From: an uncultured Fodinibius sp.
Lineage (GTDB): Bacteria > Bacteroidota > Rhodothermia > Balneolales > Balneolaceae
Length of the DNA stretch: 64,000 bases
Assembly (NCBI GenBank): GCA_913056235.1
Contig: CAJXMW010000004.1
Span: 248,001-312,000 of the forward strand
Direction of reading: 5' to 3'
Positions within the stretch are counted from its first letter, which is position 1; each line of letters begins with the position of its first letter. Position numbers and translations under genes: made by a program. Below are positions 37,190 through 59,868 of this stretch, piece after piece. Below the pieces are notes generated by a model, which was not told the DNA's origin, made no database searches, and worked only from the letters and a program-made list of their open reading frames with translations.

Positions 37190-37265
37190 AATTGCTCCTT
37201 TATCTGATTTCGATACTCAGCGTCTAAACCAGAAACTAATTTTCAATATGTCGAATTTTTAAGGA

Positions 37266-39128: not shown

Positions 39129-39140
39129 AGTATGGTTTAT

Positions 39141-39575
39141 TTATTCAGGGCGGTCTGGCGGATCCGAAAAAGGCGTGATCTCCAGCTGGTTAGAGGTTCC
39201 GCTTTCGTTATCGTTTTCGTCCACAGCCGTAAGCCGATAGTAGTAAGTGGTTCCGTTTTCCAGGCCGCTATCTGTTAAGTTTGTTTCTTGAATGAGGTCG
39301 GAGGCATTAACAGGAGTCATATCTGATATGTCCGAAAAACTACTGGTTGATCGGTATAGATTATAACCGCTCAGGTCATTCTCACTATTGGCATCCCAGC
39401 TTAGATCAATTTTCTGATCTCCGGAATTTCCATGCAGATTCGCCGGAGATGAAGGGGCTTCGTCAGTACCGTTTCCGCCGTTCCCGGAACCGGTAGATGA
39501 CCCTCCGCAGGAAGTAATTACAAAGATACTACAGAGTATTAAGACTATTGAGGGGATTAAAAAACTGCGTTTCAT
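39141..39575 (-). CDS. Small lipoprotein with one fibronectin type III domain
   Basis: 144 residues. Lipobox FVITSCGGS, a Gly/Ser/Asn linker, then a single FnIII domain (KIDLSWDANSENDLSGYNLYR, GTTYYYRLTAVDENDNES). No enzymatic or carbohydrate-binding signature beyond FnIII. Between two GH13 genes in the sus operon, it may be a surface spacer or glycan-binding lipoprotein. Function unknown. Confidence 0.83.
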   Translation of the reverse strand: MKRSFLIPSIVLILCSIFVITSCGGSSTGSGNGGNGTDEAPSSPANLHGNSGDQKIDLSWDANSENDLSGYNLYRSTSSFSDISDMTPVNASDLIQETNLTDSGLENGTTYYYRLTAVDENDNESGTSNQLEITPFSDPPDRPE

Positions 39576-39586
39576 AAAACTCTTGG

Positions 39587-42500
39587 CTATTTGATTAAGG
39601 TCATTTTTTGGGTAAATCGCTGATCTCCAATCTTGAAAACAGCAAAATACATCCCACTTGCCCGCTGACTCCCATCAAAGGTAATAGTATGGGTACCGGC
39701 TTGTCGAACTTCATTGTTGATGAGCGTGCTTACTCGCTGTCCAAGTATGTCATATATTTCAACACGTACTTCGGTTTGTTCCGGCAGCGAAAATCGCAGG
39801 GTCGTGGATGGATTAAAGGGATTAGGATAGTTTGGTTGTATCTTTATTTCTTTGGGAAGAAATTCTTCCTGCTGCTGGTTGATATATCGCGTATCGCCCA
39901 TTACCAGCATCATCGAAGTTTTCCCTTTTTCAGGGATGATTTGAACTTCTTTTTTCTTGCTCAGATTGTATTTGCGACCGGATTCCTTATCTAACAGTGC
40001 CAGTTGAATATCGGGATTATTGTCCCATCCTTCAGTGCTTATGGTCACCGGTTGTTTGGGAGTAGCCGACAGAATCACTTCTAATTGGTGCCCATCGCTG
40101 TTTTGATGTTGGTAAACATGTGCTAAGGAGCTGGTTCGCGAGGATTGTTGCTCGTTATCGGCTGAAAATCGCAGTGATGCCCCTTCAAACTTCGCAGGAG
40201 GTGCTACTATATTATTAGGTATTTCGCTAGTGCTAACCAGCGTCAGACTGCTTGATGATGTTTTTTCGCCATCAACGCGGGTAATAAGCCGGATTTGGTT
40301 CTGATTCTCTTTTGTTTGCTTTTTGGATGCAGACGACTCGTAAGGAATCTGCAAATTGTCTAATCCCTGGTCATTTAAAAAGTAAACAGCTTCACCGGAA
40401 CGGGCAGAGGCAAATGTTTGGGCTTCACTAAAGGATCCATTAAAGCTCCAGATGGATTGGAGATTACCGCCGTTAGCCTCCGAAACTTTGCTCCAGCTTA
40501 CATCGGTGTGCAATGGATTCGAAATTATATTCCACCCGTCGTGCAGTGGTATGGAAGCCTGATTATTGTCATTGAGTTCTACGGTAGGGACGGTCTGGTC
40601 GTAAGTGAAATCTTCTTTGCTGGTAACCCAGAAACCGTTGCCGGCATTCATGGTAAAGGTCGAACTGCCATCGTATTTTACCATATAGTCATCGTCTTCT
40701 CCATTATCCCAATATGCTTGCCAGTCAACACTTGGATCTCCATTTAAAACATCGGCAAGTGGTTCTTCTGTCTGGCCGGGCAGGGCAACCAATCGGTAAT
40801 CCTGCGGTGTAGAGGCCCCATCAAATTTCTTTGCAATATCCACGTTTATCTGCGTGGGGACAAAATCGAGAAGTCCTTTTTCAGGGGTTTCAAACTTTTT
40901 GGTGGTGTAGATATGAAATTCACCGGCACTCATTGCAATCGTCGTATCGGTATTGCTTACCGACAGGGTATCACCGGAAAAGAAATCGTACCAGTCGCCG
41001 GATTGCGTAAACTGCGGCTGCATATCGGTGTCCGTAACCCCAAAATTACCGGCAATGGTAACATCCAAATCGGGATGGGTGATGGTAATATGCTTATTGG
41101 TGCTATTTACGTTCATAGAAACATTGGAGCTTTCTGATGTAAAGGCCTCGTGAGAATTGCGCAGCCGGATGAGTGCTTTATAAGTATCATAGAGTTTTTT
41201 TCTATTCTCCTCCTGATAATACTCCCACCGGATTGGCTTTTCGCCCGTACGCCCGTTTTGATTGATATCAACCTCATAACCAAGCTCTCCAAATTGCCAC
41301 AGCATTTTGGGTCCGGGCACAGTGAAAAAGAAAGCAGAAGAGAGCTTCATACGATTCAACGCGGTGTTTAGCTCCGTGATATCATAAGAACCGCTGTTGT
41401 TACTGTTTCCAAAATTGAGGTTTTCGTACATGAGACGCTGTTCGTCGTGGCTCTCCATATAACCCACTAAATTCGGGTTACTCCAGTTTCTGTTTTTATA
41501 GTAAATTCCAGCGAAATTACTTTCATTCTCGTATCCCATGGAGGCTTGTTTGTAATTGTGGTGCATATTGCCCCAGAGTAGCATTCCGGAATTGGAAAGT
41601 TCTTGTTCTTCGCTATTTGCAGTTAAGTGCTCAAGGATCACATACGAAGAGTCATCCACCGCCCACTGCTGGTCGGCCATGCGTTTTAGGATCCGTATCC
41701 GGTCCTCATCACGAGCCCATCCATCTCCGGCATTTTGCGTAAAGCCTTTTGTAAAATCGAAGCGGAATCCGTCGGTATTAAATTCCTGTAGCCAGTAGCG
41801 TGTTACGCGGTCAACATAGTATTGTGTGGCAGCCGCTTCGTGATTAAAATCATATCCCCAGGAATATTCTTGATTTGGTGAACTTACATTAAGGTACGGG
41901 TTTTCGGTTGTAGGCTGACCGTAATCACCTTCGTTCCACAGTCGCACCAGGGGTGATTGTCCATAGACGTGATTGAGCACAATGTCTAAAATCACAGCCA
42001 TTCCCCGTGAATGAGCTTCATCGATGAATCTTTTGAGATCATCGGCAGGCCCGTAATACTTGTCAGGAGCCAATAGAAAAGCTGAATTATATCCCCAGCT
42101 GACATTCCCTTCAAACTCCATGACCGGCATTAATTCGATCGCATTCACGCCCAATCGGTCGAGGTAGTCGAGGGTATCGGTTAATGTTTTATAATCATGA
42201 TTTTCAACAAAGTCCCGAACCAGCAGCTCATAGACCACCAGGTTTTCCTTATCCGGTCGATCATAATTTTGGTACTGCCATTGGTAATCCGTTTTTCCGG
42301 GCTGTAGAACACTTACAGAAAAATCTGTTTGATCGCCTGGATACGGTTTTAAATCCGGATAAGTTTGTTCGCTAATATACTGGTCATCGGGTTGCAGGAC
42401 TTTTTCGGAGTAGGGGTCAGCCACGCGAATTTCGCCATCTACCAAATATTGAAACCCATATTCCTGACCTTGATTCAGCCCGTCGATTTCGATCCAGTAG

Positions 42501-43423
42501 TAGCTGCTGTCGGCATTGACGGTTTCTTTGTTCATAAAATACTCGGGCTGCGGGGTCCAGTCGTTAAAATCCCCGAGCACGTAAACAAACTCTTTGTTGG
42601 GGGCGAAGAGCGACAGGCGAACGGTGTTATTATTCACATAGGTGATACCGTCTTGCAAGTTAGCCGGTCGGGCTTGTTCATTGACATCGGGATTCACGAC
42701 CATTCTCTTAGATTGCTCGTCGCTGTTGGTCCCGTCGCTGCCGGTTAGCCGAAGAGTAAAATTCCCTGCATTTTGGGCGCTGTAGGTATATTCCAGAGTG
42801 TCATTATTGACTTGTTGTACCTGCTGATTATCGATATAGAGCGTCAATGTTACGTTATTTTCTGTGGAGGCAATGCCTTGTATATCGACCGATACGTTAT
42901 TCTCATAAAAGGAGAGGGTATCCTGTGGTTCAGTGATTTTTACGTTGAACTGGTTTTGATAGACATCAGCATAAATATCAGATTCGTCCACGGTTTTTCC
43001 CTCTTTGGAGCCGTCGCTGTTGCGAAAAACAAAAGCCATCTGCTCAATGGTTTCACTTTCGGAAGCCCCGTAGTATTCCCGGATCGAAGGTGAGATTTCC
43101 AGTTTATACATATTTGGTTCGCCCTGAACCTGCTCCAACCTGTTTTTATCCGTGTTGGCCTGGGATTGATTACTGCCGTCGGGCCAAGGAGTGATGACAT
43201 GCTGCCAGTCGGATCCGTCGCTGCTTGCTGCAGTGATAAGCCCGGTATGGGCATACACATCGCCATTGTGATCTTCGAGACCTCTGTTCCCCTCAGTAGC
43301 ATCAAAATAAATTGTGACGGATTCATCCGCCGTATAAAAATCGGGTTCGGTTGTTATAACTTGGCTATAGGAAAGGGAAGTAGTGGAAAAGAAGAAGAGG
43401 AGTATAGCTATTAGGCGTTTCAT
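39587..43423 (-). CDS. Secreted GH13 alpha-amylase with type IX secretion tail
   Basis: 1278 residues from the ATG at 43423 (a start 13 codons upstream is less likely). Order: signal peptide; two N-terminal beta domains; a CBM48-like module (about 245-335, YVLGDFNDWTPQPEYF); GH13 barrel (about 395-780) with region I DIVLNHVYG, region II GFRFDF (Asp near 556), region III ILEHLT (Glu near 598) and region IV MESHDEQR; further beta domains (GWNIISNPL); and an end of about 85 residues with YPNPFNPSTT and IYDILGQRV, the type IX sorting signal. It is the probable surface starch degrader of this locus, replacing lipoprotein SusG. Confidence 0.94.
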   Translation of the reverse strand: MKRLIAILLFFFSTTSLSYSQVITTEPDFYTADESVTIYFDATEGNRGLEDHNGDVYAHTGLITAASSDGSDWQHVITPWPDGSNQSQANTDKNRLEQVQGEPNMYKLEISPSIREYYGASESETIEQMAFVFRNSDGSKEGKTVDESDIYADVYQNQFNVKITEPQDTLSFYENNVSVDIQGIASTENNVTLTLYIDNQQVQQVNNDTLEYTYSAQNAGNFTLRLTGSDGTNSDEQSKRMVVNPDVNEQARPANLQDGITYVNNNTVRLSLFAPNKEFVYVLGDFNDWTPQPEYFMNKETVNADSSYYWIEIDGLNQGQEYGFQYLVDGEIRVADPYSEKVLQPDDQYISEQTYPDLKPYPGDQTDFSVSVLQPGKTDYQWQYQNYDRPDKENLVVYELLVRDFVENHDYKTLTDTLDYLDRLGVNAIELMPVMEFEGNVSWGYNSAFLLAPDKYYGPADDLKRFIDEAHSRGMAVILDIVLNHVYGQSPLVRLWNEGDYGQPTTENPYLNVSSPNQEYSWGYDFNHEAAATQYYVDRVTRYWLQEFNTDGFRFDFTKGFTQNAGDGWARDEDRIRILKRMADQQWAVDDSSYVILEHLTANSEEQELSNSGMLLWGNMHHNYKQASMGYENESNFAGIYYKNRNWSNPNLVGYMESHDEQRLMYENLNFGNSNNSGSYDITELNTALNRMKLSSAFFFTVPGPKMLWQFGELGYEVDINQNGRTGEKPIRWEYYQEENRKKLYDTYKALIRLRNSHEAFTSESSNVSMNVNSTNKHITITHPDLDVTIAGNFGVTDTDMQPQFTQSGDWYDFFSGDTLSVSNTDTTIAMSAGEFHIYTTKKFETPEKGLLDFVPTQINVDIAKKFDGASTPQDYRLVALPGQTEEPLADVLNGDPSVDWQAYWDNGEDDDYMVKYDGSSTFTMNAGNGFWVTSKEDFTYDQTVPTVELNDNNQASIPLHDGWNIISNPLHTDVSWSKVSEANGGNLQSIWSFNGSFSEAQTFASARSGEAVYFLNDQGLDNLQIPYESSASKKQTKENQNQIRLITRVDGEKTSSSSLTLVSTSEIPNNIVAPPAKFEGASLRFSADNEQQSSRTSSLAHVYQHQNSDGHQLEVILSATPKQPVTISTEGWDNNPDIQLALLDKESGRKYNLSKKKEVQIIPEKGKTSMMLVMGDTRYINQQQEEFLPKEIKIQPNYPNPFNPSTTLRFSLPEQTEVRVEIYDILGQRVSTLINNEVRQAGTHTITFDGSQRASGMYFAVFKIGDQRFTQKMTLIK

Positions 43424-43450
43424 AGCGATGAATTCAGTAGCAGGTTGTAA

Positions 43451-43484
43451 ATAAAAGCCCACCCATCACAACGATGAGTGGGCT
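43451..43484 (-). terminator. Terminator inside the sus operon, after susE
   Basis: Read on the minus strand: AGCCCACTCATC, 5-base loop, GATGGGTGGGCT (one G-T wobble), then TTTTAT. It lies between susE and the large amylase gene and could lower expression of the downstream enzymes relative to susCDE. Confidence 0.75.
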
Positions 43485-43521
43485 GGTGATTTATGAGTGC
43501 CTTGGAAACAGAAACTAAATC

Positions 43522-44646
43522 TTAGTTTGCAGCCTCCATTTCGACGACGTAGTCATTAATATTTACTTTGATGTAATAACTGCCAGCACTTCCGGTGAAT
43601 TGGAAGTTGCTATCGCCATCGTTGGCATTTTCAAGCAGCTCATCAATGGTGCCGCCGTTATTTGCAAAGTACGGATAGTTGTAGCTATCTGGTGCCCAAC
43701 CGGCCTGTCCAAAGAATCTGAATGCCCCGTCTTGGAAATCAGTAGTTGCTTCAAAGACACCGGGTTGGACAAAAGTCATTTTGACACTTTCGCCACTTCC
43801 AGGAGTGTCCCATGCACCTGTACCCGAGCCAGTCATATACATTACGGGTTCATCAACGGCTTCCATCTCAACATTGTAGGTATCAAAGTTAACTGTAATT
43901 CGATACCAACCCGTTGAGCCGGTAAAACGGAAATTGAGGTCACCGTCATTGGCATTTTCAAGCATTGGATCAATAGTACCGCCGTTATCAGCAAAGTATG
44001 GATAATTCCAGTTTTCAGCACTCCAGTCGGCTTCTTTAAAGAACCTAAAGGCTTCACCGTTGGTAAATTCAGCCATTGTTGAGTACACATTAGGTTCTGT
44101 GCTGGGAGTAATTACGGCCTGATCCAGCGACCATCCCTTGAGTGCAGAACCTATCATATAAATAGGAGGGAAAGAGGTCTGGAACGGAGTGACCGATATT
44201 GTTACCGGCGATGAAACGACATTTTTTGTCGAATCAGTGTTAATAGAGGCGGTAACACGAAGATGTACATTGTGCGACTTTCCCCCAGCCAGTGCCATTG
44301 TCAGCAGCATTTGGTTAAGGCTGCCAACTGTAACGCCCACAGAAGTCTTCTGTGTAGAAGCAATTTGTTGAGCGTTGGAAAAATCACTGGAGGCTCCCAG
44401 CTCCACATTGTATGTGGGAGCTGAGTTAAATCCATAGTCAGGTTCTGACCATTGGATGGTCATTACCGTATCGCCTGCCTGATCACGGTTAAGCTCATAG
44501 CTTTGACCGTCTTCAGGAGAATTGATAGCCGGGGCTCCCGGGTCGCTGGTATTGGCGACGGGCCCCATCTCTGCTTTATCGCAGGAGCTAAGTGCTGCGA
44601 TACTAACAATCGATAATAGAATTAGAGCTAGTTTCTTCATAGTCAT
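43522..44646 (-). CDS. susE: SusE/SusF-type starch-binding outer-membrane lipoprotein
   Basis: 374 residues (a start two codons later, MKK, is equally possible). Lipobox AALSSCDKA, a SusE N-terminal Ig-like domain (about 35-150), then two tandem starch-binding modules of about 100 residues that are close copies: FRFFKEADWSAENWNYPYF and FRFFGQAGWAPDSYNYPYF, each followed by NGGTID and LENANDGD. Works on the cell surface with SusC and SusD. Two modules, as in SusE, against three in SusF. Confidence 0.92.
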   Translation of the reverse strand: MTMKKLALILLSIVSIAALSSCDKAEMGPVANTSDPGAPAINSPEDGQSYELNRDQAGDTVMTIQWSEPDYGFNSAPTYNVELGASSDFSNAQQIASTQKTSVGVTVGSLNQMLLTMALAGGKSHNVHLRVTASINTDSTKNVVSSPVTISVTPFQTSFPPIYMIGSALKGWSLDQAVITPSTEPNVYSTMAEFTNGEAFRFFKEADWSAENWNYPYFADNGGTIDPMLENANDGDLNFRFTGSTGWYRITVNFDTYNVEMEAVDEPVMYMTGSGTGAWDTPGSGESVKMTFVQPGVFEATTDFQDGAFRFFGQAGWAPDSYNYPYFANNGGTIDELLENANDGDSNFQFTGSAGSYYIKVNINDYVVEMEAAN

Positions 44647-44670
44647 GCTGTTTTGAAATTCGAAAATTGA

Positions 44671-46575
44671 TTAATAACCCGGGTTCTGAGTCAAGTTGGG
44701 GTTCGAGTTAATGTCAGACACGGGAATAGGGAACACATTGTACGTATCATTTGTGCTGTTTCCGTTTTGACTGTTGCCTTTCCAGGCCCAGGTATAATCA
44801 GAACCGGTAAACATGCCGAATCTTCTGAGATCTGTTCGACGGTGGCCTTCCCAGTACAGTTCGCGGCCCCGCTCGTCGATGAGGAAGTCGAGCGTCAGCT
44901 CAGAAGAGCTGATGTTTTGGTCTTGACCATTATACGCTCGTTCTCGCAGGTCATTAACCAACCGAACGGCTTTGTTCATGTCCCCGCCATCTCCTCCGCG
45001 AACGACTGCTTCAGCATACATCAAGTAAACATCCGCCAGTCGAAACATCGGGAAGTCGATATCCACAAATTCCAGATCGGAACCGGGTTGACCATTTGTG
45101 GTGATATTTTTCCACTTGGAGATAGCATAGCCATTGGTAAATTCGGCTAAGCTTGGGATATCTTTGTTTTGACCGCTGATATACAGGGTATTACGTTCGT
45201 TGGTCTGTTCGATAGTATACGTGTTGTTATTGGTGTTCACCATGAACGTATGGCGTCCTGATTTCGGAATCACAATATTGGATCCCCCAGCTTCGTAGGT
45301 TCCATCGCCTTCGTTATCACCCCAGCTTTCATCCCAGTCACGTTCCGGTGTGAGTTGTATTTCAGCACCGGCTGAACCTACATATACAGTTCCGCGGTAG
45401 ATACCGTCATTATTGTCATCAACGAGGGGAGGAGCATTCCCCGGTGTCCAGTTGGAACCGTAACCACTCCCTGACTGGTAACTGCCCGGTACATAAATTT
45501 CAGGGTCACCATCGGGATTGCTGGTTGTTTCGCCCGGCGATCCGAGGGGCACAAACTTATCCGCAAATTGCGGGGTCACTCGGTGACCGGCCCAGGCTGA
45601 GTTCAGCCCGAAGTCAGTAATGTCCATATCACCGCCAACGGCTGCATGAGCAATAAAGGTAGTGCCGCCGTAGGTTTGCGTATTTCGTCCGTCAAAGGCG
45701 ATTGGGAAGATGACCCCATTGGCAATGTGATTATCTGCCAGGAAGAGATTCCCGTAATCACTTTCAAGCGTGTAACCGCCTTGCTCAATAACTTTGTCAG
45801 CATACGTAATGGCTTCAGTGTAGTGTGGTTCGCCAGTGTAAACTTCCGCATTCAGGTACAACTTGGTGAGCAGTGTCCAGACTGCTGCTTGATCGGCTCG
45901 AGCATACTCGTTTTGCTGAGGAGCCGGGAGTTCGCTCTCAATAGCTTTGAGCTCGCTTTCTATGTAATTAAAGAGCTCTTGATCACCAACCGGTTCCGGT
46001 TGGTACGCTCCTACGCCGTTTTCTTCCGTCACAAACGGTACACCACCGCCGTAGAAATCGAGTGCATGCCAATAGCTGAGTGCCCGAAGAAATCGAGCTT
46101 CGGCCATGTATCCCTGAACAGTGGAGTTGCTGTTGCCTTTGGCATTACGAATAAATTCATTTGCCATGGAAATTTCGTAAAAGACGCGGCTGTACATCCC
46201 CATAACAAAATCATTGGAAGCACCCCACGACTGAAAATTAAATTCTGGAAGACCGGGGTCATTCCAGCCGACAACTGCTTCGTCTGTGGGTATCTCTTGC
46301 GAGACCCACATTTGGCGAATGTAACTTGAGAATCCCTCATCAATACCTTGAATATCGGGATTACCAGCGGGACCTTGCTGTCCCGTGGTAGCAAAACCGG
46401 CATATAATTTAGCAAGTACCTGCTGATAGTCTTGTTCATTCTCATACAGCGAGGCCGAGGTCACTACGTCGTCGTCAATAGGTGTGGTATTCAAACTGTC
46501 CACACAGGACGTAACTGTGGCCACCATCAACACCATTAGTGCGATCGCAACTATTGAATATTTGTTGTTAAACAT
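44671..46575 (-). CDS. susD: SusD/RagB outer-membrane lipoprotein with inserted SusE-like module
   Basis: 634 residues. Lipobox TVTSCVDSL, TPR-rich SusD core (MAEARFLRALSYWHALDFYGG, then the C-terminal LIDERGRELYWEGHRRTDLRRFG). Typical SusD proteins are about 500-550 residues. Here residues of about 361-457 read like a SusE/SusF starch-binding module (YVPGSYQSG, DGIYRGTVYVG, LTPERDWDESWGD, GGSNIVIPKSG), inserted between SusD core segments. It forms the lid on the SusC channel and binds alpha-glucan; the insert probably adds a binding site. 95 bp after susE in operon order (susD precedes susE). Confidence 0.93.
   Translation of the reverse strand: MFNNKYSIVAIALMVLMVATVTSCVDSLNTTPIDDDVVTSASLYENEQDYQQVLAKLYAGFATTGQQGPAGNPDIQGIDEGFSSYIRQMWVSQEIPTDEAVVGWNDPGLPEFNFQSWGASNDFVMGMYSRVFYEISMANEFIRNAKGNSNSTVQGYMAEARFLRALSYWHALDFYGGGVPFVTEENGVGAYQPEPVGDQELFNYIESELKAIESELPAPQQNEYARADQAAVWTLLTKLYLNAEVYTGEPHYTEAITYADKVIEQGGYTLESDYGNLFLADNHIANGVIFPIAFDGRNTQTYGGTTFIAHAAVGGDMDITDFGLNSAWAGHRVTPQFADKFVPLGSPGETTSNPDGDPEIYVPGSYQSGSGYGSNWTPGNAPPLVDDNNDGIYRGTVYVGSAGAEIQLTPERDWDESWGDNEGDGTYEAGGSNIVIPKSGRHTFMVNTNNNTYTIEQTNERNTLYISGQNKDIPSLAEFTNGYAISKWKNITTNGQPGSDLEFVDIDFPMFRLADVYLMYAEAVVRGGDGGDMNKAVRLVNDLRERAYNGQDQNISSSELTLDFLIDERGRELYWEGHRRTDLRRFGMFTGSDYTWAWKGNSQNGNSTNDTYNVFPIPVSDINSNPNLTQNPGY
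45205..45495 (-). other. Inserted SusE/SusF-like starch-binding module within susD
   Basis: About 97 codons. The order PGSYQ, WTPGNAPPL, DGIYRGTVYV, LTPERDWDESWGD, GGSNIVIPKSG, FMVNTNNNTYTIE is that of a SusE/SusF CBM. The flanks return to SusD sequence on both sides without frameshift. Boundaries are by eye, within about 10 residues. Confidence 0.75.
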
Positions 46576-46600
46576 AATCTTCAGTTTTAAAAAGTTTCAA

Positions 46601-49576
46601 TTAAAAGTTCAGGCTCAGTCCAAGAATGAACGTACGAGGTCGTGGGTAGACATTGTTGTCTATACCTCCAAAAACCTCCGGATCAAGCCCGCTGTAATTG
46701 CTTATTACAAAAGCGTTTTGGACGGTCGAGGATATCCGCAACGATTTAACCTGGTTAAACAGGTTATTGAAAGTGTATCCAACCGTGATATTATCCATTC
46801 GCAAAAACGATGCATTTTCAACGTAGTGGTCAGAGTGATATTGGGCCGTACTAAACTGCACATCTTGAATGTCTGTGATCGCATTATTTAGATAACCCTG
46901 AGAGTTGTACATGAAATTGTAGACCGTATGATTCGATGCTACGTTGTTGTACACATAATTACCGATGTTAGCCCGTGCTGAGAAAGATGCATCCCAGTTT
47001 TTGTATTCCAGTCGGGATGAAAGGCCAAACGTCATATCTGGTGACGGGCTTTCATATCGGTACTTGTCATCTGCCGTAATTTGTCCGTCGTCATTTCTAT
47101 CAACATAGACGCCGTCCAAAGGATTTCCATTCTCATCGTAAACCTGCTCATAGACGTAGAATGAACTTCTTGGATAGCCTACACTGTGAATTTGGATGGT
47201 GTTGCCAACACCGCCGGAAATCCCACCCGTTTCAACGCCAATATAATCTTCGGCGTCAACATTGGTCAGCTTCGTAATCTCATCCTGGTTGTGCGAAGCA
47301 TTCAAACCAATTTCCAGGTATGCATCTTCGGTAGATATAACACGTCCTGTGACGCTGAATTCTACGCCTCGAACTTCAAGAGTACCGATGTTCGACAGAA
47401 TGCGATTTGTGAAGTTCGTTCCTGCCGGTACCGGAATTACGTTTAATAGGTCATTTGTTTCTCGATAGTATGCTTCAAGAGAACCGACCAATCGATCGTT
47501 AAAAAATCCGTAGTCAAGTCCTACGTTATACGTAGTGGTTTCTTCCCACTTGAGGTTCTCATTGTAACCTTCCGGTCGGAGAGTGGTAATGTACTGATCT
47601 CCAAATCGGTATCGGGCCGTTGGTTCACTATATGTATATTGCGGCAAGTACGGATAGTTACCTTCGTTGATACGCTGCTGACCGGTTACACCATATCCGA
47701 GTCGAAGTTTTAACTGAGTAATTGCATCAACATCTTGCAAGAACGACTCTTCGTGCATTTTCCATGCCAGCGCTGCAGAAGGGAAGAGGCCCCAGCGATT
47801 TTCTTCCGAAAAGCGGGAAGTTCCATCCTGTCGTAAAGTAGCTGTCAGCAGGTACTTATTCTTATATGTATAATTGGCGCGTCCAAAGAAGGATACAATG
47901 TAATGTTCGGTTTCGTAGTCTGTATCCTCATCAACTGCTAAGGTATCTGAAGTATTGTAGTTGGTTACATAGTTGGACCCTTGCTCGTAATGATGCTCCC
48001 AGGAATAACCGCCGGTAACATCAATTTTACTGTCAATAGAAGATAACTCTTTCTTATAATTCAGGTAGAAGTCCAGCAGTTCATTTTCTTTCCGTTGTTC
48101 GTAACTGGTGCGTTCGCCATTGGGTTGACCTTCACCCGTATAAGCAAAGGCTGCCTGGTCCGTAATTTTGATACTCCCGTTGCTAACGTCAGAATAGTCA
48201 TATCCCATGTTAAGCGTGGCCGAAAGATTAGAAACAAACGGCATGGTATATTCGAATTTGGCATTACCGATTGAACGATAGACCGTAGATTCGTCCACCT
48301 CTTGCTCTAGCAATGCCAGTGGGTTGGCCGGGGCAATGTCGATTGGGTTATCGTTTTGATCTGTCCAGGCGAAATAATCACCAAAGTCTTCACCTACTGG
48401 ATCTTGAACCGGTTGGGTAGGATCAAAGGAGATAGCAGATCCAATAGCACCTGTATTGGCAAATCGGTTGTCAACCCGCATGCCTTTCAGGTTAAGATCC
48501 ACCTTCAGATCATTGTCTAAAAAGGATGGATTTACAGCAATGTTACCAGTCAGCCGGTCCATTTGAGATGTTTTAAGAATACCTCCATTACCGACGAATC
48601 CTAAAGACACACGGTAGGGCAGATTTCCAGCTGAACCTGTAAAGCTCAAACTGTGGTCCTGACTAAAAGCATTTTTAAAAATCTGATCTTGCCAGTGAGT
48701 GCTTTTATCACCCAGATATTGTGTTCCTGATTGTCCAAACTGTTCATCAATTACTGTTCTGAACTCACCGGCTGAAAGTACATCCAGCTCGTCAGCTCGT
48801 GTTTGGTAGGAGGCTTTACCCGTATAATTAACAGATAAGTCTTGTCCTTCCGAACCGCGCTTGGTGGTAATGATAACAACACCGTTAGAGGCACGTGATC
48901 CATAAATGGCAGTTGCAGAAGCATCCTTAAGGATAGAGATAGACTCAATATCATTAGGATTGATCGAATTCAGGGGATCCCTCATGCCTGAAACGCCGCC
49001 GCCATCCAGAGGCACGCCGTCTACAACATACAACGGATCATTACTTGCCGACAGGGAAGATCCACCGCGAATACGGATGGTAGCTCCACTACCGGGGGCG
49101 CCGCCGCCAGAAGTTACAGTCACTCCCGCTGCTTTACCCTGAAACAGTTCCTGAGGAGAGGTGATGGCTCCCTCGTTAAAATCACTAGAACTTACCGAGG
49201 TAACTGACCCCGTATTGTCGTCTTGTTGCTGCGTGCCGTACCCGATTACAACAACATCTTCGAGTTGTTGTACATCAGGCGACATTTCAATATTGATGGT
49301 AGACCGACCCTGAACTGGGACTTCTTGTTTTACATATCCGATATACGAAAACACCAGCGTATCTTGGGCTGATGGGACTCGGAGACTGTATTGTCCGTCT
49401 GTACCAGCAGAAGTTCCTCGGGTGGGCATCCCTTTTACAGTAATGTTAACCCCCGGTAGTACTTCTCCTGTTTCAGCATCGGTTACCGTTCCTGAAACGT
49501 TTGTCTGTGCCAGTCCGGGTAGTGTAAGACCCAGTACCAGGCATGACGTAATAAGTAGCTTTTTTATAGGTATCAT
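46601..49576 (-). CDS. susC: SusC-type TonB-dependent outer-membrane transporter
   Basis: 991 residues. Signal peptide (GLALPGLAQ-like end), carboxypeptidase-regulatory-like domain (about 25-100), TonB-box region LEDVVVIGYGT, plug domain (LQGKAAGV-like LFQGKAAGVTVTSGG, IRIRGGSSLSASNDPLYVVDG, AIYGSRASNGVVIITTKRG), then a 22-strand barrel ending in FILGLSLNF. Imports bound maltodextrins together with SusD. First gene of the reverse operon, controlled by the two palindromes upstream. Confidence 0.96.
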   Translation of the reverse strand: MIPIKKLLITSCLVLGLTLPGLAQTNVSGTVTDAETGEVLPGVNITVKGMPTRGTSAGTDGQYSLRVPSAQDTLVFSYIGYVKQEVPVQGRSTINIEMSPDVQQLEDVVVIGYGTQQQDDNTGSVTSVSSSDFNEGAITSPQELFQGKAAGVTVTSGGGAPGSGATIRIRGGSSLSASNDPLYVVDGVPLDGGGVSGMRDPLNSINPNDIESISILKDASATAIYGSRASNGVVIITTKRGSEGQDLSVNYTGKASYQTRADELDVLSAGEFRTVIDEQFGQSGTQYLGDKSTHWQDQIFKNAFSQDHSLSFTGSAGNLPYRVSLGFVGNGGILKTSQMDRLTGNIAVNPSFLDNDLKVDLNLKGMRVDNRFANTGAIGSAISFDPTQPVQDPVGEDFGDYFAWTDQNDNPIDIAPANPLALLEQEVDESTVYRSIGNAKFEYTMPFVSNLSATLNMGYDYSDVSNGSIKITDQAAFAYTGEGQPNGERTSYEQRKENELLDFYLNYKKELSSIDSKIDVTGGYSWEHHYEQGSNYVTNYNTSDTLAVDEDTDYETEHYIVSFFGRANYTYKNKYLLTATLRQDGTSRFSEENRWGLFPSAALAWKMHEESFLQDVDAITQLKLRLGYGVTGQQRINEGNYPYLPQYTYSEPTARYRFGDQYITTLRPEGYNENLKWEETTTYNVGLDYGFFNDRLVGSLEAYYRETNDLLNVIPVPAGTNFTNRILSNIGTLEVRGVEFSVTGRVISTEDAYLEIGLNASHNQDEITKLTNVDAEDYIGVETGGISGGVGNTIQIHSVGYPRSSFYVYEQVYDENGNPLDGVYVDRNDDGQITADDKYRYESPSPDMTFGLSSRLEYKNWDASFSARANIGNYVYNNVASNHTVYNFMYNSQGYLNNAITDIQDVQFSTAQYHSDHYVENASFLRMDNITVGYTFNNLFNQVKSLRISSTVQNAFVISNYSGLDPEVFGGIDNNVYPRPRTFILGLSLNF

Positions 49577-53364: not shown

Positions 53365-53880
53365 TCACCAGCCGCTTACGGCGTCGTTAAACATGTTGTT
53401 GGCAATTCGGCTGAGGGCTTCATCGGCGGCATTTTCTTCGCCCTCTATGGGATTTTCGTTGGTATCAAAAGTGCCGGATCCGCTGAAAGATTTACTCCAC
53501 TCGGCTTGTTCCTTGTTCGTATACTGAAAGGTTGCCCGCACGTTGATTGTTACTTCATTTTGGCTGGTTTGTTGTTCGCCGGTAATGCTAAACGGTTTGT
53601 TGGTGTAACGGACGATAGACCCTTCGAGCACCGCGTCAGCCTGGGCTCTGGAGTTAGCTAGCTGCAGGCGTGTTTGATTAATAAATCGATCCAAAAGCGC
53701 CTGATTGAGCCGGTCGCTCAGGTTACCAATGCCGCTGGATGATTGATTCGCAAAAAATGGAATATAAATTGAGTTGACATCGTCGGGGATGGAGGTGCCC
53801 GTGAAGCTGTATCTAAAACATCCCGAAAGAAAAAAAGTAACAAGTAGTAGAAATAGCAGTGATTTTTTATTGCAGGCCAT
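53365..53880 (-). CDS. lptE: LPS-assembly lipoprotein LptE
   Basis: 171 residues from the ATG at 53880, which overlaps the upstream sigma-54 activator by 14 bases; the frame upstream of that is not lptE-like. Lipobox FFLSGCFRY, then the LptE domain (YSFTGTSIPDDVNSIYIPFF, LNQALLDRFINQTRL, ADAVLEGSIVRY). It partners LptD in placing LPS in the outer membrane. Confidence 0.92.
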   Translation of the reverse strand: MACNKKSLLFLLLVTFFLSGCFRYSFTGTSIPDDVNSIYIPFFANQSSSGIGNLSDRLNQALLDRFINQTRLQLANSRAQADAVLEGSIVRYTNKPFSITGEQQTSQNEVTINVRATFQYTNKEQAEWSKSFSGSGTFDTNENPIEGEENAADEALSRIANNMFNDAVSGW

Positions 53881-55156
53881 ACTGATCAAGCTTACGATAA
53901 AGAGTACGTTCGCTAATGCCGAGTGCTTCGGATGCTTTACGTCGGTTGCCTTCGAACTTCTGGAGTGCCTGCTCAATAAGAAACTGCTCAGTCTTTTCTA
54001 TGGATGGGATGTCGTCAGCATTGAAAAATTGGGTAAAGGCATCTTCCTCGGTTTCTTCTGAGATATCTGCTTCGGCATACGGTTCAACGCCTATATCTTC
54101 ATCTGCTGCGTTACCTACATTTACATCAATATCCGACATGTCGCCCTGGTTAAATTCATCCTGGATATTTTGTGGAAGAGCCTTCATATTTTTCTGCGAA
54201 AAGGTGGAATACAAAAAGGAGCCGAGCATTTTCTTAAGATCACTGATGTCACTTTGCAGCTCAACCAGTGCCCGGTAGATCAGCTTTTGATCCTCTTCAC
54301 CGAGGGAACCGTTTGAACTGCTCTGTTCTTGCTGGTCTGCCAGCACCGGCAGATTGTCGGCCGAGCCAGTATGCTGACGTCCTTTGAGATACTTTTGCAG
54401 TTTTTCTTTGTCGATAAACTCTGATTTTTCGAGCACCACCAGCTGCTCGGCTACATTGCGTAGCTCACGAACGTTGCCCGGCCAGCGGTAAGAAATAAGC
54501 AGTTCTTTAGCTTCATCCGAAAACCCTTTAAAGACAGAATCATATTTGGCCGAGAATTCGGTAACAAATTTTCGAAATATGGGGATGATATCATCGGGTC
54601 GCTCGCGGAGAGGAGGCAGCTTTACTTTTACTGTATCAAGGCGGTAGTAAAGATCTTCGCGAAATTCTTCGTCCTGAACCAGCTGCCACAGATCTTTGTT
54701 GGTAGCTGCAATCACGCGGACATCAGTAGTACGAGCCTTGCTCGAGCCCACCCGGAAATATTCTCCTGATTCCAGCACGCGCAACAATTTTACTTGCACG
54801 TTAGCCGGCATATCGCCAATCTCATCCAGGAAAATGGTCCCGCCGTTGGCTTTCTCAAAATATCCTTCACGTGCTTCATGGGCTCCGGTAAAAGCTCCCT
54901 TCTCGTGGCCAAAAAGTTCACTTTCGATGATGCCTTCAGGGATGGCCCCACAGTTTACAATTACTAGGTCGTTATGCTTGCGGTGGCTAATCTCGTGGAT
55001 GGCCTTGGCGGTTACATCTTTGCCAACTCCGCTTTCACCTTCTAAAAGCACGGTGATATCAGTATCGGCTACTTGTATAACCTTGTCGATAACCTGTTTT
55101 AGAGCAACAGATTCACCGATCAACCCAAAACGTTCTTGAAATGCTTCGCGGTCCAT
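53867..55156 (-). CDS. Sigma-54-dependent transcriptional activator without receiver domain
   Basis: 429 residues. The AAA+ domain begins at residue ~10 (GESGVGKDVTAKAIHE Walker A, ELFGHEKGAFTGAHE with the GAFTGA loop, GGTIFLDEIGDMP Walker B). A variable acidic linker (about 270-375) precedes the Fis-type helix-turn-helix (NRRKASEALGISERTLYRKL). With no N-terminal sensor domain it may be constitutive or regulated by a partner. It is the first gene of the lptE cluster, translationally coupled to lptE. Target genes unknown. Confidence 0.93.
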   Translation of the reverse strand: MDREAFQERFGLIGESVALKQVIDKVIQVADTDITVLLEGESGVGKDVTAKAIHEISHRKHNDLVIVNCGAIPEGIIESELFGHEKGAFTGAHEAREGYFEKANGGTIFLDEIGDMPANVQVKLLRVLESGEYFRVGSSKARTTDVRVIAATNKDLWQLVQDEEFREDLYYRLDTVKVKLPPLRERPDDIIPIFRKFVTEFSAKYDSVFKGFSDEAKELLISYRWPGNVRELRNVAEQLVVLEKSEFIDKEKLQKYLKGRQHTGSADNLPVLADQQEQSSSNGSLGEEDQKLIYRALVELQSDISDLKKMLGSFLYSTFSQKNMKALPQNIQDEFNQGDMSDIDVNVGNAADEDIGVEPYAEADISEETEEDAFTQFFNADDIPSIEKTEQFLIEQALQKFEGNRRKASEALGISERTLYRKLDQYGLQ

Positions 55157-55441
55157 AAGAGGAGAAGCTTGTTTCTACCTGATTATTAGCATTGTTTTAT
55201 ATGTAACCCATAAGGTAAGAATTACACATTTAGATACATAAAGATAATACGTCAAAATTACTGTTAGAAAAACGATATTAAAGGCCATACAATTCACATT
55301 TAAAAATTCAGCCACTTGATAGTTCAAAGAAAAACAGTAACCATTTAGAAAGTTAATCGTCATATAATTGAACGCGACAAATTCTGTATAGCTTGTGAGT
55401 CTGCGTTATATTCGGAGAAGGTTTTTACTTAACAAATAGGA
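55157..55441. other. 285-bp divergent spacer between two regulators
   Basis: AT-rich, especially at 55170-55370; no gene. TATATTCG at about 55408-55415, 34 bp before the sigma start, resembles a -7 box but is unsupported by a matching -33. Nothing else recognised. Confidence 0.5.
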
Positions 55442-56002
55442 ATGGAGCGACGGGAAGAAGAGCTACAAATTGTAGAAGAGATTTTGGATGGTAAACGAGA
55501 TCGATATCGAATCCTCGTGGACCGCTATGCTCCTATGGTATTCAGTGTAGTCAACGAGTTTGTTGATGCGGAATCCGAAGCCGAAGAGCTGGCGCAGGAA
55601 ATATTTGTGAAGACCTATGAGCGATTGTCATCGTTTAAGGGGCAATCAAAGTTTTCTTCGTGGCTTTATATGATAGCTAAAAATCACTGCAGAGATTATG
55701 CTAAAAATGTAAGAAGAAAGAACAAGAGGCTCGGTGACATCAATGGAAAAGAGCTTGACCGGCAGCTGGAACATAGCGAATCTCCTGATCAGGAAGTTGA
55801 AAGAAAAGAGTGGCTTGAAATTCTCAAAGAAGGATTAAAATCTATAAATCCGGATTATGCTGAAGCCTTTATGATGAAATACGATAGTGATATGAGTTAT
55901 AAGGCAATGTCAAAACGGCTGGATGTATCTGTAAGTGCGCTTAAAGTACGCGTTTATCGTGCCAAGAAGGAGTTAAAGACGTTTTTTGAATCTCAAGGTT
56001 GA
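55442..56002 (+). CDS. ECF sigma factor of the CBM48 cassette
   Basis: 186 residues. Region 2 (RYAPMVFSVVNEFV, AEELAQEIFVKTYERLSSFKG, FSSWLYMIAKNHCRDYAK) and region 4 helix-turn-helix (MSYKAMSKRLDVSVSALKVRVYRAKKEL). Different in length and sequence from the kinase-linked sigma factor at 3125-3694. Its stop overlaps the following gene's possible TTG start and lies 5 bp before the ATG, so the pair is translationally linked and the next gene is the natural anti-sigma partner. Confidence 0.94.
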   Translation: MERREEELQIVEEILDGKRDRYRILVDRYAPMVFSVVNEFVDAESEAEELAQEIFVKTYERLSSFKGQSKFSSWLYMIAKNHCRDYAKNVRRKNKRLGDINGKELDRQLEHSESPDQEVERKEWLEILKEGLKSINPDYAEAFMMKYDSDMSYKAMSKRLDVSVSALKVRVYRAKKELKTFFESQG

Positions 56003-56007
56003 ATGTT

Positions 56008-56733
56008 ATGGATAAGGATAAACTGCTACGCCAATATTTGGACGGTGAACTGTCACCGGATGAAGAGCAGCAAGCGTTGCATGTGATTGCAGATGACCCT
56101 GAAATGCGATCGATGCTTCGGTTTGAACAACAGTTGGCTGACTCTCTGTCTGCAGATACATCGCTGCAAACAGGGTTTGAAGTGCCCGAAGGATTTGCCG
56201 ACAGGGTAATGCACAGGATTGAACAAAAGGAGCAGAGTTCTGCATCTGAAAGCATAATCCAAAAGCTAAAATCCTGGTATCAAAAATTGTGGATTCCTCA
56301 ACAAGTGCAATGGCGACCGGCTTACGGCTTTGTGATGGCACTGCTGGTGTTGTTTTCACTCTCGTATCCATTAGTGCTAACCCAAGTTGAAATAGGTGCA
56401 GAAGAAACTACCGAAACACAACAAGTGCAAAATCTGAACGATTCTGTGCAGCAGGTATCAACTGGGTCGGAAGAAGTGATGCTTCGTTTTGTCTATATCG
56501 ATGAACAGGCTAATTCTGTGGCTGTTGCAGGTGATTTTAACAACTGGGAACCAACGGAACTCACCAAACAGAATGTCAACGGTAAAACAGTTTGGACGGG
56601 CTTGGTTTCTATGAGCCGTGGTGAACATAATTACATGTTTGTGAAAAACGGTGAGAAGTGGATTACAGATCCTCTTGCACCGGTACAACGGGATGACGGC
56701 TTCGGGAATAAAAATGCGGTTATTTACATATGA
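56008..56733 (+). CDS. Putative anti-sigma factor with periplasmic glycogen-binding (AMPK/CBM48-like) domain
   Basis: 241 residues from the ATG at 56008. N-terminal segment LLRQYLDGELSPDEEQ is typical of anti-sigma domains but lacks zinc-binding Cys. One transmembrane helix lies at about 109-129. After a linker, the C-terminal 85 residues form an AMPK-beta/CBM48-type module (VAVAGDFNNWEPTEL, GEHNYMFVKNGEKWITDP) with the Trp and Lys positions of the glycogen-binding site preserved. The topology puts the sugar module outside the inner membrane. The sensor role is inference. Confidence 0.85.
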   Translation: MDKDKLLRQYLDGELSPDEEQQALHVIADDPEMRSMLRFEQQLADSLSADTSLQTGFEVPEGFADRVMHRIEQKEQSSASESIIQKLKSWYQKLWIPQQVQWRPAYGFVMALLVLFSLSYPLVLTQVEIGAEETTETQQVQNLNDSVQQVSTGSEEVMLRFVYIDEQANSVAVAGDFNNWEPTELTKQNVNGKTVWTGLVSMSRGEHNYMFVKNGEKWITDPLAPVQRDDGFGNKNAVIYI

Positions 56734-57986
56734 GATCTATTGTACTATTTATGCTCATACTATCTATCACAACAACCAATGCGCAGGCGCAGCGGTGGCA
56801 AGGTGTTGTGTCACTGGACTCTCGTGTGGGATATTCCACGAACACTTATCTGAACCCTTTTTTGTCTGAATGGGATTCTAGTATTGAGTCTGGTTACAAC
56901 CTAACCTCGGCGGTTATGCAGGCATACTGGAATAAGAATGCACATAACATATCTTTGACGGGCGGATTGCTTTTTGAGCCACTATTTGACCAGGCAACAA
57001 GCTGGAAAGGTGGATTGGGAATTGCGGGGTATAACTATCGATTCTCAAATAGCATAAGTGCAGGTATCGAAGTCGGAGGAAGTTATTTTACCTCTAATTA
57101 CAGCCGAACGGTAGCATGGTTTCAGCCAAAGGTAACATGGTTTATTACGCCTTTTACCTTACTTCGGATCAAAGGGGGATCGAACTTTCGAAACTACCAG
57201 AATTATCTCGAAGAGCAGTCAACAGGGAACCGATATGATTTCTTCGGGATTGAGTTTGAAACCTGGCCTTCCTATCGTTGGCAGCTGAAAGCAGGTTTGT
57301 ATGGATCTCTCACCAACTTGACTTCCCTGCAAAAAGGTTTTAGTACTAGTTCGACACTTACCTATCATTTTAATAACAGCACGCAGATTGGATTGAATAT
57401 CAGCGTTGAACAGTATCAATCAGAAGTAACGCAGCAGCAAAACGGGGGAAATGGCGGGCCGCCGATAGGAGATCCGGTTAACCAGCCGACGGTTACAAGT
57501 CTTGCCACTGATCGAATTTTTAAAGTAGGGTTGGAAGGGACATTGCCAATCAGTCAGCGGTTTTCAGTATTCGGAGCGGCAGATGTGCTTCGTTACCGTT
57601 CAGAAGCTTCAGATTTGAGCACTAATGACTATGAATTATCTGCAGGAGTACGGTATAGCTTTTCTCCAAAATTTGGAGGATCTGGCAGCAAGATTAATCC
57701 AGACTGGGAAGTGAGTGGTAGTAAGCAAGAAATACACGTACAGTATTCAGCAGATGGAAGGTTATATCTTGTTGGAGAATTTAACAATTGGAACAAGAGT
57801 GGTATTCCGCTCCGCAAACAGTCGGATAACACCTATGTTGCCCAGCTTGAGTTATCTCCCGGAGCCTATGAATATAAAATTCTTCAAAAACGTGGAGATA
57901 CTGAAACATGGCTCATGTTTTCAAACGAAACATATACCGTAAGTGATGGATACGGAAGTGAGAATGCAATTTTATTGGTTGAATAA
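56730..57986 (+). CDS. Outer-membrane beta-barrel protein with C-terminal glycogen-binding domain
   Basis: 418 residues. Signal peptide (ITTTNAQAQRW). A barrel-like region of about 300 residues has alternating aromatic strands (WFQPKVTWFITPFTLLRIKGG, YRWQLKAGLYGSL), then an AMPK/CBM48-like module (LYLVGEFNNWNKSGIP, PGAYEYKILQKRGDTETW). ATG overlaps the stop of the anti-sigma gene. The domain pairing with the upstream protein is the notable feature. Function unknown; could be a glucan-binding porin or scaffold. Confidence 0.82.
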   Translation: MRSIVLFMLILSITTTNAQAQRWQGVVSLDSRVGYSTNTYLNPFLSEWDSSIESGYNLTSAVMQAYWNKNAHNISLTGGLLFEPLFDQATSWKGGLGIAGYNYRFSNSISAGIEVGGSYFTSNYSRTVAWFQPKVTWFITPFTLLRIKGGSNFRNYQNYLEEQSTGNRYDFFGIEFETWPSYRWQLKAGLYGSLTNLTSLQKGFSTSSTLTYHFNNSTQIGLNISVEQYQSEVTQQQNGGNGGPPIGDPVNQPTVTSLATDRIFKVGLEGTLPISQRFSVFGAADVLRYRSEASDLSTNDYELSAGVRYSFSPKFGGSGSKINPDWEVSGSKQEIHVQYSADGRLYLVGEFNNWNKSGIPLRKQSDNTYVAQLELSPGAYEYKILQKRGDTETWLMFSNETYTVSDGYGSENAILLVE

Positions 57987-58001
57987 AACAGAGAAAGCAC
58001 T

Positions 58002-58901
58002 ATGAAACTTTATAAAGAGATATTTACAATCCTGTTTTTTGGAATTTTCTTTTTTGGGATATCCAGTGATATACAGGCTCAACAAAACGCAACAGGCAAC
58101 TGGATGCAGAAAGCACGAGAGGCTGGAATAGAGCAGTCTGTGTTATCAGATTTCCAGGAGCATGTCGATAACCAAAAAGTTACCGAGGAACAGCTTTCCT
58201 CGATTTTGAGGTCTGCTGTTTCAATGTCTGACCGGAATTTGCCGACGGATATTATTGTACAGAAAGCCCTTGAAGGATTCTCTAAGGGAGTATCTGGTGA
58301 CCGGATTGTATCTGTTGTTGGGCAGGTGCAGCAGAGCGTAGCTAAAGCTGCTACCATTATTGATTCCTGGATGGAAAAGCCGGAAGTCCGGGAAATGATG
58401 AGCAAATCAGGGGCAGGAATGCCGAAAGAAAAATTCAGGAATGAACTTGCCAAAGCTGCTTCTAAGTCTATCAGGCAGAATATTCCTTCCGAATCTCTGG
58501 ACAAGGTCTTCAGTGAACTTGGAAATAAGTCGGTATTGTCGAAGACTGGTCCCAGCGAAATAGTAGCGGCCGTGGGTATCTTGCCGGATATTTCATCATC
58601 GGCAAAAAATCCTCAGGCTGCAGGAGAGTTTGTTGTACGTGCCTTAAAAGGTGGATTTAAAGCTAATGAACTTCAAAAGCTGCCAACTGCAATGAAAATG
58701 GCACAACAGCGTAGCCAGTTGCCGGCTGCTTCAGTCATCGAGGGGGTAGCAGGACAGATGAAGGGTAATGTGCCTGCCAAGAAAATTTTACAAAACTTAT
58801 TCAATGGTAAAGTAGGAGGAGGACCTCCAGGTGATATTCCCAGGGGAATAGAAAAGAACAAGGGTAAAGGAAACGGCAACGGAAATGCCAATGGCAACTA
58901 A
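58002..58901 (+). CDS. Exported helical-repeat protein with Gly/Asn tail
   Basis: 299 residues. Signal peptide (SSDIQAQQNATG). The mature protein is mostly helical with loosely repeated units (LPTDIIVQKALEGFSKGVSG, GEFVVRALKGGFKANELQKL, LPAASVIEGVAGQMKGNV). It ends in a low-complexity Gly/Asn/Lys tail (GKGNGNGNANGN). No family recognised. 15 bp after the barrel gene, so in the same operon, and followed by a terminator. Confidence 0.8.
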   Translation: MKLYKEIFTILFFGIFFFGISSDIQAQQNATGNWMQKAREAGIEQSVLSDFQEHVDNQKVTEEQLSSILRSAVSMSDRNLPTDIIVQKALEGFSKGVSGDRIVSVVGQVQQSVAKAATIIDSWMEKPEVREMMSKSGAGMPKEKFRNELAKAASKSIRQNIPSESLDKVFSELGNKSVLSKTGPSEIVAAVGILPDISSSAKNPQAAGEFVVRALKGGFKANELQKLPTAMKMAQQRSQLPAASVIEGVAGQMKGNVPAKKILQNLFNGKVGGGPPGDIPRGIEKNKGKGNGNGNANGN

Positions 58902-58929
58902 ATCTTAAATACAATATTCACAACTAGAG

Positions 58930-58955
58930 GCCGCCTGGGAAGGCGGCTTTTTTTT
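58930..58955 (+). terminator. Rho-independent terminator of the CBM48 cassette
   Basis: GCCGCCT, GGGA loop, AGGCGGC, then eight Ts; 29 bp after the exported protein gene. It separates that operon from the DUF4382 gene. Confidence 0.93.
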
Positions 58956-59067
58956 ATGTGAAAAATTATAAAAAAAGTTGTAACCCTCTTGGAGTTCAGT
59001 CGTCATATGGACAGAAAAAGAAATCTATAGGCATTAATAGTTAATTAATCACCAAAAAGAGGAATAT

Positions 59068-59868
59068 ATGTTACGTAATAAGTTACTATCATTACCATTT
59101 GCAATAGTTGTTGCCTTTTCAGTTTTATTTACGGGCTGTGGAACTGGTTCCGATACAGGGGCCGGAACAATGACCGTGGAGATGACTGATGCACCTATTG
59201 ATTCGGCAGATGCTGTTAATGTGTTTATTGAACGTGTCGAAGTTCAATCACAGGATGGCTCCGGATGGATAACACTTAACGAGCCACAGCAAGAATACAA
59301 TCTGCTGGAGCTCGTCAACGGGGCAACAGAAGTCATCGGCTCAGCAGAACTGGAAGAAGGCACTTACAATCAGATCCGGCTGATTTTAAGTCAGGATGGC
59401 CATAGTGTCGTTGTTGATGGTATGGAGTATTCGATGAAAGTTCCAAGCGGAGCTCAAACGGGTGTTAAGCTCAATATAAATGCTGAGATAGAGCCTGATA
59501 TTGAATACGTATTATTACTGGACTTTGAAGCCAGCAGATCAGTTGTAAAAGCTGGAGAAAGTGGGAAGTATCTGTTGAAACCAGTGATTCGAGCTCATGA
59601 AAAAGCGATTACTGGAAATATTGCCGGTACGGTTAATCCCGTGGATGCACAACCAGTTGTTTACGCAATTGCTGATTCCGACACTCTTTCATCGACTATA
59701 GCTGATACTACCAGTGGCGAATTTAAACTTATTGGCCTGGAAGAGGGGACATATAGCGTATCTGTTGATCCTCGAAATGATGATTATCAGTCGAAGACGG
59801 TCGATAATGTAGATGTGACAGCTGAAGAAACCACTGATCTAGGTACGGTTGAAGTGTCAAGCAATTAA
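59068..59868 (+). CDS. DUF4382 lipoprotein with carboxypeptidase-regulatory-like end
   Basis: 266 residues. Lipobox LFTGCGTGS, then a DUF4382 domain (TVEMTDAPIDSADAVNVFIERVEV, a beta-sandwich of unknown function) to about residue 175, and a C-terminal domain of about 80 residues like the carboxypeptidase-regulatory fold (FKLIGLEEGTYSVSVDP). Probably on the outer membrane. Own promoter likely, after the terminator at 58930. Confidence 0.87.
   Translation: MLRNKLLSLPFAIVVAFSVLFTGCGTGSDTGAGTMTVEMTDAPIDSADAVNVFIERVEVQSQDGSGWITLNEPQQEYNLLELVNGATEVIGSAELEEGTYNQIRLILSQDGHSVVVDGMEYSMKVPSGAQTGVKLNINAEIEPDIEYVLLLDFEASRSVVKAGESGKYLLKPVIRAHEKAITGNIAGTVNPVDAQPVVYAIADSDTLSSTIADTTSGEFKLIGLEEGTYSVSVDPRNDDYQSKTVDNVDVTAEETTDLGTVEVSSN

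Follow-up and report, generated by a model that had tools for sequence, protein, structure and literature searches.

The window analysed here is a 64-kb stretch of a Balneolaceae genome (an uncultured Fodinibius sp.), in which four genes at 55.4-58.9 kb, lying on the same strand and separated by intergenic gaps of 0-18 nt, encode an extracytoplasmic function (ECF) sigma factor of 186 aa (55442..56002), an anti-sigma factor (56008..56733), an outer-membrane protein of 418 aa (56730..57986) and an exported all-helical protein of 299 aa with a Gly/Asn-rich tail (58002..58901). Both the anti-sigma factor and the outer-membrane protein end in a carbohydrate-binding module of the CBM48/AMPK-beta type, and these are the only two AMPK1_CBM matches above the curated cut-off in the whole genome. 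An initial annotation of the window had described four tightly spaced genes; this is confirmed, and the unit is larger than was then stated, in that it also comprises two promoters, a terminator and the gene of a DUF4382 lipoprotein. An ECF-type promoter, GTAAC-N16-CGTC-ATAT, precedes the sigma gene (55337..55365), a strong intrinsic terminator with an 11-bp stem and a T run follows the helical gene (58926..58951), and a second copy of the promoter (58980..59008) stands before the DUF4382 gene (59068..59868), whose 266-aa product carries a lipobox (...LFTGC). All of these features lie on the plus strand. Library domain searches used Pfam and NCBIfam.

The sigma factor matched Sigma70_r2 (1.8e-16) and Sigma70_r4_2 (4.7e-11) of Pfam as well as TIGR02937 (8e-29). 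Only its sigma2 and sigma4 regions were matched, with no sigma3 match, and at 186 aa it is close to the ~190 aa of a minimal ECF sigma factor, in agreement with the ECF identity that had been proposed. For the anti-sigma factor, ATG 56008 is the more likely start over TTG 55999, since orthologues begin at the aligned MDK/MNK position; depending on the start chosen, the reading frame overlaps or abuts the sigma gene. The protein consists of an N-terminal anti-sigma domain, one transmembrane helix (residues 110-128; 56326..56382; hydropathy 2.06), a linker of ~30 aa and the CBM48 domain, predicted to be periplasmic (residues 158-244; 56470..56730), which Pfam recognised as AMPK1_CBM at residues 169-243 (1.5e-8). 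When the family profile was compared with the PDB, residues 7-79 matched RsiW (5wuq_C; E 9.8e-4) and residues 162-224 matched AMPK-beta CBMs (E ~2e-6), while the matches of the same profile to RseA (E 0.15) and MucA (E 0.47) were not significant. A single transmembrane helix separates the two parts in 81/81 homologues as in the window protein, and the HxxxCxxC zinc motif was found in 0/82 anti-sigma sequences, which places the family in the zinc-less subset, as RseA. The membrane anti-sigma factor with a C-terminal CBM48-type domain is thus borne out in both of its halves. Its pairing with the sigma factor is supported by the adjacency of the two genes across genomes; that it would bind and inhibit this sigma factor is suggested by the behaviour of the family.

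The outer-membrane protein begins with a signal peptide, followed by a predicted 14-strand barrel (residues 23-311) and the second CBM48 domain (residues 325-418; 57702..57983), which matched AMPK1_CBM at residues 339-417 (Pfam, 2e-6); the profile of the barrel family matched the AMPK beta1 CBM (1z0n) with an E of 1.8e-12. The barrel prediction comes from AlphaFold2, whose model (pLDDT 82) has 14 beta strands followed by the CBM domain, in agreement with the outer-membrane barrel of the initial annotation. Compared with the PDB by VIA-align, this model was closest to CymA (Z 20.7; root-mean-square deviation 3.5 over 258 residues) and OmpG (Z 19.0), entries of these two proteins scoring Z 18-21 and the next fold 16.1; identity was ~8-10%, and no sequence relation was detected. 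CymA and OmpG are monomeric 14-strand sugar channels, CymA being one for cyclodextrins, and the likeness of the model to them fits an alpha-glucan ligand. The longest loops of the model lie between strands 1-2, 9-10 and 11-12, so that both termini of the barrel, and with them the CBM48 domain, are probably periplasmic.

The anti-sigma, barrel and helical proteins were sought in 247 genomes of the phylum, nine of which, besides the genome of the window, held all three; in 9/9 the three genes stood side by side in an unchanged order, preceded by the sigma gene. A profile of the helical protein was found in 60 of the 245 genomes of the class (22 of 89 genera), and same-genus cassettes were present in Fodinibius/Aliifodinibius (compare loci L074/L085 and L075/L086). 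When 85,000 species genomes were scanned with the anti-sigma alignment, 80 best loci were obtained from at least eight phyla: Balneolales, then Gemmatimonadota, Nitrospirota, Myxococcota and other Deltaproteobacteria, with Krumholzibacteria, Rokubacteria, Acidobacteria and others also included. The sigma gene lay beside the anti-sigma gene in 74 of these 80 loci and a helical homologue was present in 72, many of the absences being contig ends. The gene order that had been noted in the window, and whose recurrence elsewhere was to be checked, is thus not unique to this genome and is shared by many others; no cassette was found on plasmids. Most Nitrospirota encode the second CBM48 on its own, as a small exported protein that in several cases has a lipobox; the barrel (Phenol_MetA_deg, BBP2_2-like) then has its own gene nearby, an arrangement that is a split version of the barrel-CBM48 fusion. 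In Gemmatimonadota (L135, L149, L152, L154, L157-L160), an exported protein of ~350 aa with a C-terminal CBM48 is encoded near the sigma/anti-sigma pair, divergently transcribed and outside the operon.

To our knowledge, the carbohydrate-binding anti-sigma factors described so far are the Gram-positive RsgI proteins. Residues of the candidate binding site were numbered by the core sequence of the AMPK-beta1 CBM, in agreement with the PDB alignments. The equivalent of Trp100 was retained in 81/81 anti-sigma and 54/54 barrel-protein domains and that of Trp133 in 79/81 and 47/54, respectively; both were likewise nearly invariant in the stand-alone CBM48 domains. In the anti-sigma protein of the window the two residues are W183 and W221, counted from TTG 55999. 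One of the two patterns used in the scan contained Trp100, which brings some selection into the anti-sigma count at this position; neither Trp133 nor the barrel domains were subject to it, and ten sequences found by whole-protein similarity also retained both Trp residues. At the position of Lys126, the anti-sigma domains had Met (68), Ala (11), Gln (1) or Ile (1) and in none of the 81 cases Lys, while Lys or Arg occupied it in 28/54 barrel-protein domains. Of the binding-site Trp and Lys residues that had been reported as preserved in the anti-sigma protein, the tryptophans are therefore kept and the lysine is replaced, by Met. Because the two stacking aromatics are kept, a carbohydrate ligand is plausible for these domains, and the alpha-glucan or other polysaccharide suggested by the initial annotation is in keeping with this and with the sugar-porin-like barrel; since the third position is changed, the ligand need not be glycogen. 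The same alterations at Lys126 and at other AMPK contact positions, together with the presence of one domain type in both partners, could also be taken to mean that sugar binding was lost and that the CBM48 domains serve as protein-protein modules within the same self-regulated circuit, the anti-sigma factor sensing the barrel, the helical protein or the lipoprotein, all products of its own circuit, as a check on envelope assembly that involves no carbohydrate ligand. The near-invariance of both stacking Trp residues in two separate domain families and in many phyla argues against this alternative, which we consider less likely.

The linker between the transmembrane helix and the CBM48 domain ranged from 6 to 33 residues across the anti-sigma family (median 20-26), and where it measures 6-8 residues, contact with a domain tethered to the outer membrane would be hard to achieve, a further difficulty for sensing of the cassette's own products. 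It is also the difficulty for a second possibility, namely that the CBM48 domains of the anti-sigma factor and the barrel dock onto each other across the periplasm and so join the two membranes non-covalently. Linkers of 6-33 residues and two domains of ~4 nm reach about 15-23 nm when fully extended, which the thickness of a typical periplasm exceeds or barely leaves sufficient. Short linkers hence disfavour such a bridge, and direct contact between the two domains looks unlikely where the linker has 6-8 residues. A precedent exists in Bacteroides, where Dma joins an anti-sigma domain and an outer-membrane barrel in one chain (PMC13088901), and in the present cassette both halves carry the same domain; even so, we regard a trans-envelope bridge as improbable.

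The helical exported protein with a Gly/Asn tail, as originally described, was corroborated by AlphaFold2: the model, built with 66 homologues, was all helix (pLDDT 91.1) with a low-confidence Gly/Asn tail; in the homologues, too, the tail is rich in Gly, Pro, Asn or charged residues. The protein belongs to no Pfam or NCBIfam family. Neither the PDB nor the viral libraries contained a fold match above background (Foldseek E 0.014-0.015 at best; highest Z 7.9, with designed repeat proteins), which is no proof of a new fold. The DUF4382 lipoprotein (Pfam DUF4382, 1.8e-38), whose sole match in the PDB was an engineered protein (7e-4), has its gene behind that of the helical protein in most Balneolales loci, and in an all-against-all comparison of neighbouring genes DUF4382 was the only family besides the cassette genes that was shared broadly across phyla. 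It is a probable fifth member of the cassette and target of the sigma factor.

The promoter motif GTAAC-N16-CGTC was first noticed on reading the sequences 5' of the sigma genes. It was found upstream of sigma in 28 of 31 regions, these being all 28/28 Balneolales loci, at 31-134 nt from the sigma start and with a spacing of 16 throughout (17 in one locus); 0.15% of shuffled sequences match it. The motif also preceded 22 of 27 Balneolales DUF4382 genes, and one more after correction of the start. Within the 64-kb window it occurred exactly twice, at 55337 and 58980, and in a search of the whole genome the CGTCnTA form at spacing 16 was confined to these same two positions. Other matches in this genome, with spacing 15 or 17 or lacking CGTCnTA, were discarded as chance-like, having no suitably placed downstream gene. 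In the genome-wide search with a loose pattern, the reversed-pattern control matched more often than the pattern itself; such counts therefore mean little, and the promoter argument rests on position and spacing. Outside Balneolales, the motif stood before sigma in 6 of 50 loci against 0.12 expected, in Nitrospirota and Krumholzibacteria only. Judged from these sequences, self-regulation of the sigma circuit appears well supported.

Sites outside the cassette in related genomes preceded DUF4382 paralogues in L228 (twice) and L230, an IPT-like lipoprotein in L231 and, in L226, L229 and L234, members of a second lipoprotein family whose match to MbnP is weak. In Nitrospirota loci the motif was present before sigma and before Gly/Met-rich exported proteins (L117:3-305 and 9619-9957, L127:2688-3386, L150:5043-5864), and in one Krumholzibacteria locus before sigma and before the helical gene. 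Since the sites precede genes of lipoproteins and exported proteins, the output of the regulon would be envelope and exported proteins rather than starch enzymes. Small proteins with a motif resembling a secretion tail, NYPNPFNP, are also encoded among the genes of the cassette, again preceded by the promoter motif (L092:6843-7286, L097:5330-5764, L105:6777-7199, L107:3355-3708), and some of these loci have a second copy of the helical protein.

We propose, with a probability of about one half, that the cassette is a positive-feedback envelope ECF circuit whose gate is an anti-sigma factor that binds carbohydrate in the periplasm. In the absence of a signal, the anti-sigma factor would hold the sigma factor at the inner membrane, its periplasmic CBM48 domain acting as the sensor of carbohydrate binding or loss; the ligand would most likely be an alpha-glucan resembling maltodextrin or cyclodextrin, or a related envelope glycan. 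A change in ligand may alter the susceptibility of the anti-sigma factor to release or proteolysis and so free the sigma factor, which would then drive the GTAAC-N16-CGTC promoters of its own operon, of DUF4382 and of other exported-protein and lipoprotein genes. Among the products, the predicted 14-strand sugar-porin-like channel with its periplasmic CBM48, the helical exported protein and the lipoprotein may bring the ligand in, thereby closing the positive loop. A wider proposition is put forward more tentatively: that the cassette represents a widespread and so far undescribed carbohydrate-sensing route of diderm bacteria, in which the CBM48 of the outer-membrane sugar channel captures an alpha-glucan-like ligand, that of the anti-sigma factor reads its periplasmic level and an ECF sigma factor is switched; its promoter would be one conserved in three phyla or more, and the route would include a new helical exported family that has no Pfam entry.

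Several observations weigh against the carbohydrate-gated circuit. In the anti-sigma family Met replaces Lys126, and clear conservation is not seen at other contact positions of AMPK, so that affinity or ligand may differ; strand number alone may have ranked CymA and OmpG first among the structural matches of the barrel; the promoter motif was not found before sigma in Gemmatimonadota or Myxococcota loci, nor was any other common motif found there; and no glycan-degrading gene was a constant neighbour in the all-against-all comparison. The last point, together with the self-contained envelope regulon, also speaks for an anti-sigma factor that senses its own products.

A complete starch-type Sus locus occupies 31773-49576 of the window, with GH65 and GH13 enzymes, an MFS transporter, SusE, SusD and SusC; one of the enzymes carries a CBM48 and a Por secretion tail. 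The initial annotation had seen in this locus a physiological link, and joint control of starch uptake by the cassette and the Sus locus might be supposed from their presence in one window. Starch-type SusD was indeed present in 27 of 60 cassette genomes versus 13 of the 185 others in the class (Fisher 2e-10), an association that held at genus level (7e-5) and when stratified within four genera (p 0.009). Any SusD at all, taken as a control, was present in 197/245 class genomes and, being near-universal, is of little use for co-occurrence. Related genomes are not independent and phylogeny was only crudely controlled, so the association, and with it an indirect link between cassette and starch, is suggestive only; 33 of the 60 cassette genomes lack this SusD. 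At the other cassette loci, Sus genes were not adjacent save for one SusC piece (L084) and short SusC-like matches in three Gemmatimonadota; in the window the sigma promoter was absent from the Sus genes and occurred at the cassette only; and genomes of the Nitrospira/Thermodesulfovibrio type carry the cassette. On synteny and promoter evidence, the Sus locus was rejected as a part of the system, the taxonomic spread pointing the same way, and joint control of starch uptake is very unlikely.

Among known systems, RsgI anti-sigma factors sense polysaccharides through extracellular CBMs, and in Clostridium thermocellum the cognate sigma factor drives its own operon, as proposed here (PMC4711584). 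RsgI differs in being Gram-positive, in its anti-sigma N-domain, in a sigmaI that is not a minimal ECF factor, in carrying CBM3, PA14 or GH10 instead of CBM48, in controlling cellulosome enzymes and in having no outer-membrane partner; the RsgI N-terminal domain had no Pfam/NCBIfam match at E<=1 in the cassette proteins. The Dma/Das (ECF21) systems of Bacteroides share with the cassette an ECF sigma factor, an N-terminal anti-sigma domain with a transmembrane helix, an outer-membrane beta-barrel and regulation chiefly of their own operon (PMC13088901). In Dma, however, a long disordered tether leads to a barrel within one polypeptide, whereas the cassette encodes its barrel separately and the anti-sigma chain ends in CBM48, with no outer-membrane barrel at its C-terminus; moreover, Dma has been reported from Bacteroidota only (PMC13088901), while the cassette spans phyla. 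Cell-surface signalling of the FecA-FecR-FecI type (PMC11637429) similarly co-encodes an outer-membrane protein, a single-transmembrane anti-sigma factor and an ECF sigma factor, but the cassette barrel is porin-like, with 14 strands and a periplasmic CBM48, and no Pfam match to FecR, Plug or TonB_dep_Rec was found in the cassette proteins. The CBM48 domains share family and Trp100/Trp133 equivalents with the AMPK beta CBM (1z0n) and differ from it in being exported and membrane-tethered and, in the anti-sigma factor, in the change of Lys126 to Met; CymA and OmpG have no CBM domain, unlike the cassette barrel. In its proposed working the cassette resembles a mixture of RsgI and Dma, but the domains that define either of them are absent from it. 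A literature search, with subscription journals and preprints mostly outside its coverage, returned no paper on the combined cassette.

Were the carbohydrate-gated circuit correct, a CBM-bearing anti-sigma factor with a sugar-porin-like partner in the outer membrane, forming a self-contained unit present in many phyla, would be a general diderm device for sensing glycans or the envelope. The cassette is directly testable, now that its promoter, both binding domains and their Trp residues are pinpointed, and its helical exported protein stands as a conserved family with no Pfam/NCBIfam entry. As to neighbouring genes, an M20 peptidase, a GT2, a HAD hydrolase and a GH13 adjoin the cassette in several Balneolales (L073:10196-14952; L083, L090, L094), upstream and divergent; this block, which is not at that place in the window, could represent compatible-solute genes of the glucosylglycerate type. 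At 53867-55156 of the window, divergent to the cassette, lies the gene of a sigma-54-type AAA+ regulator that has no receiver domain and carries a Fis helix-turn-helix.

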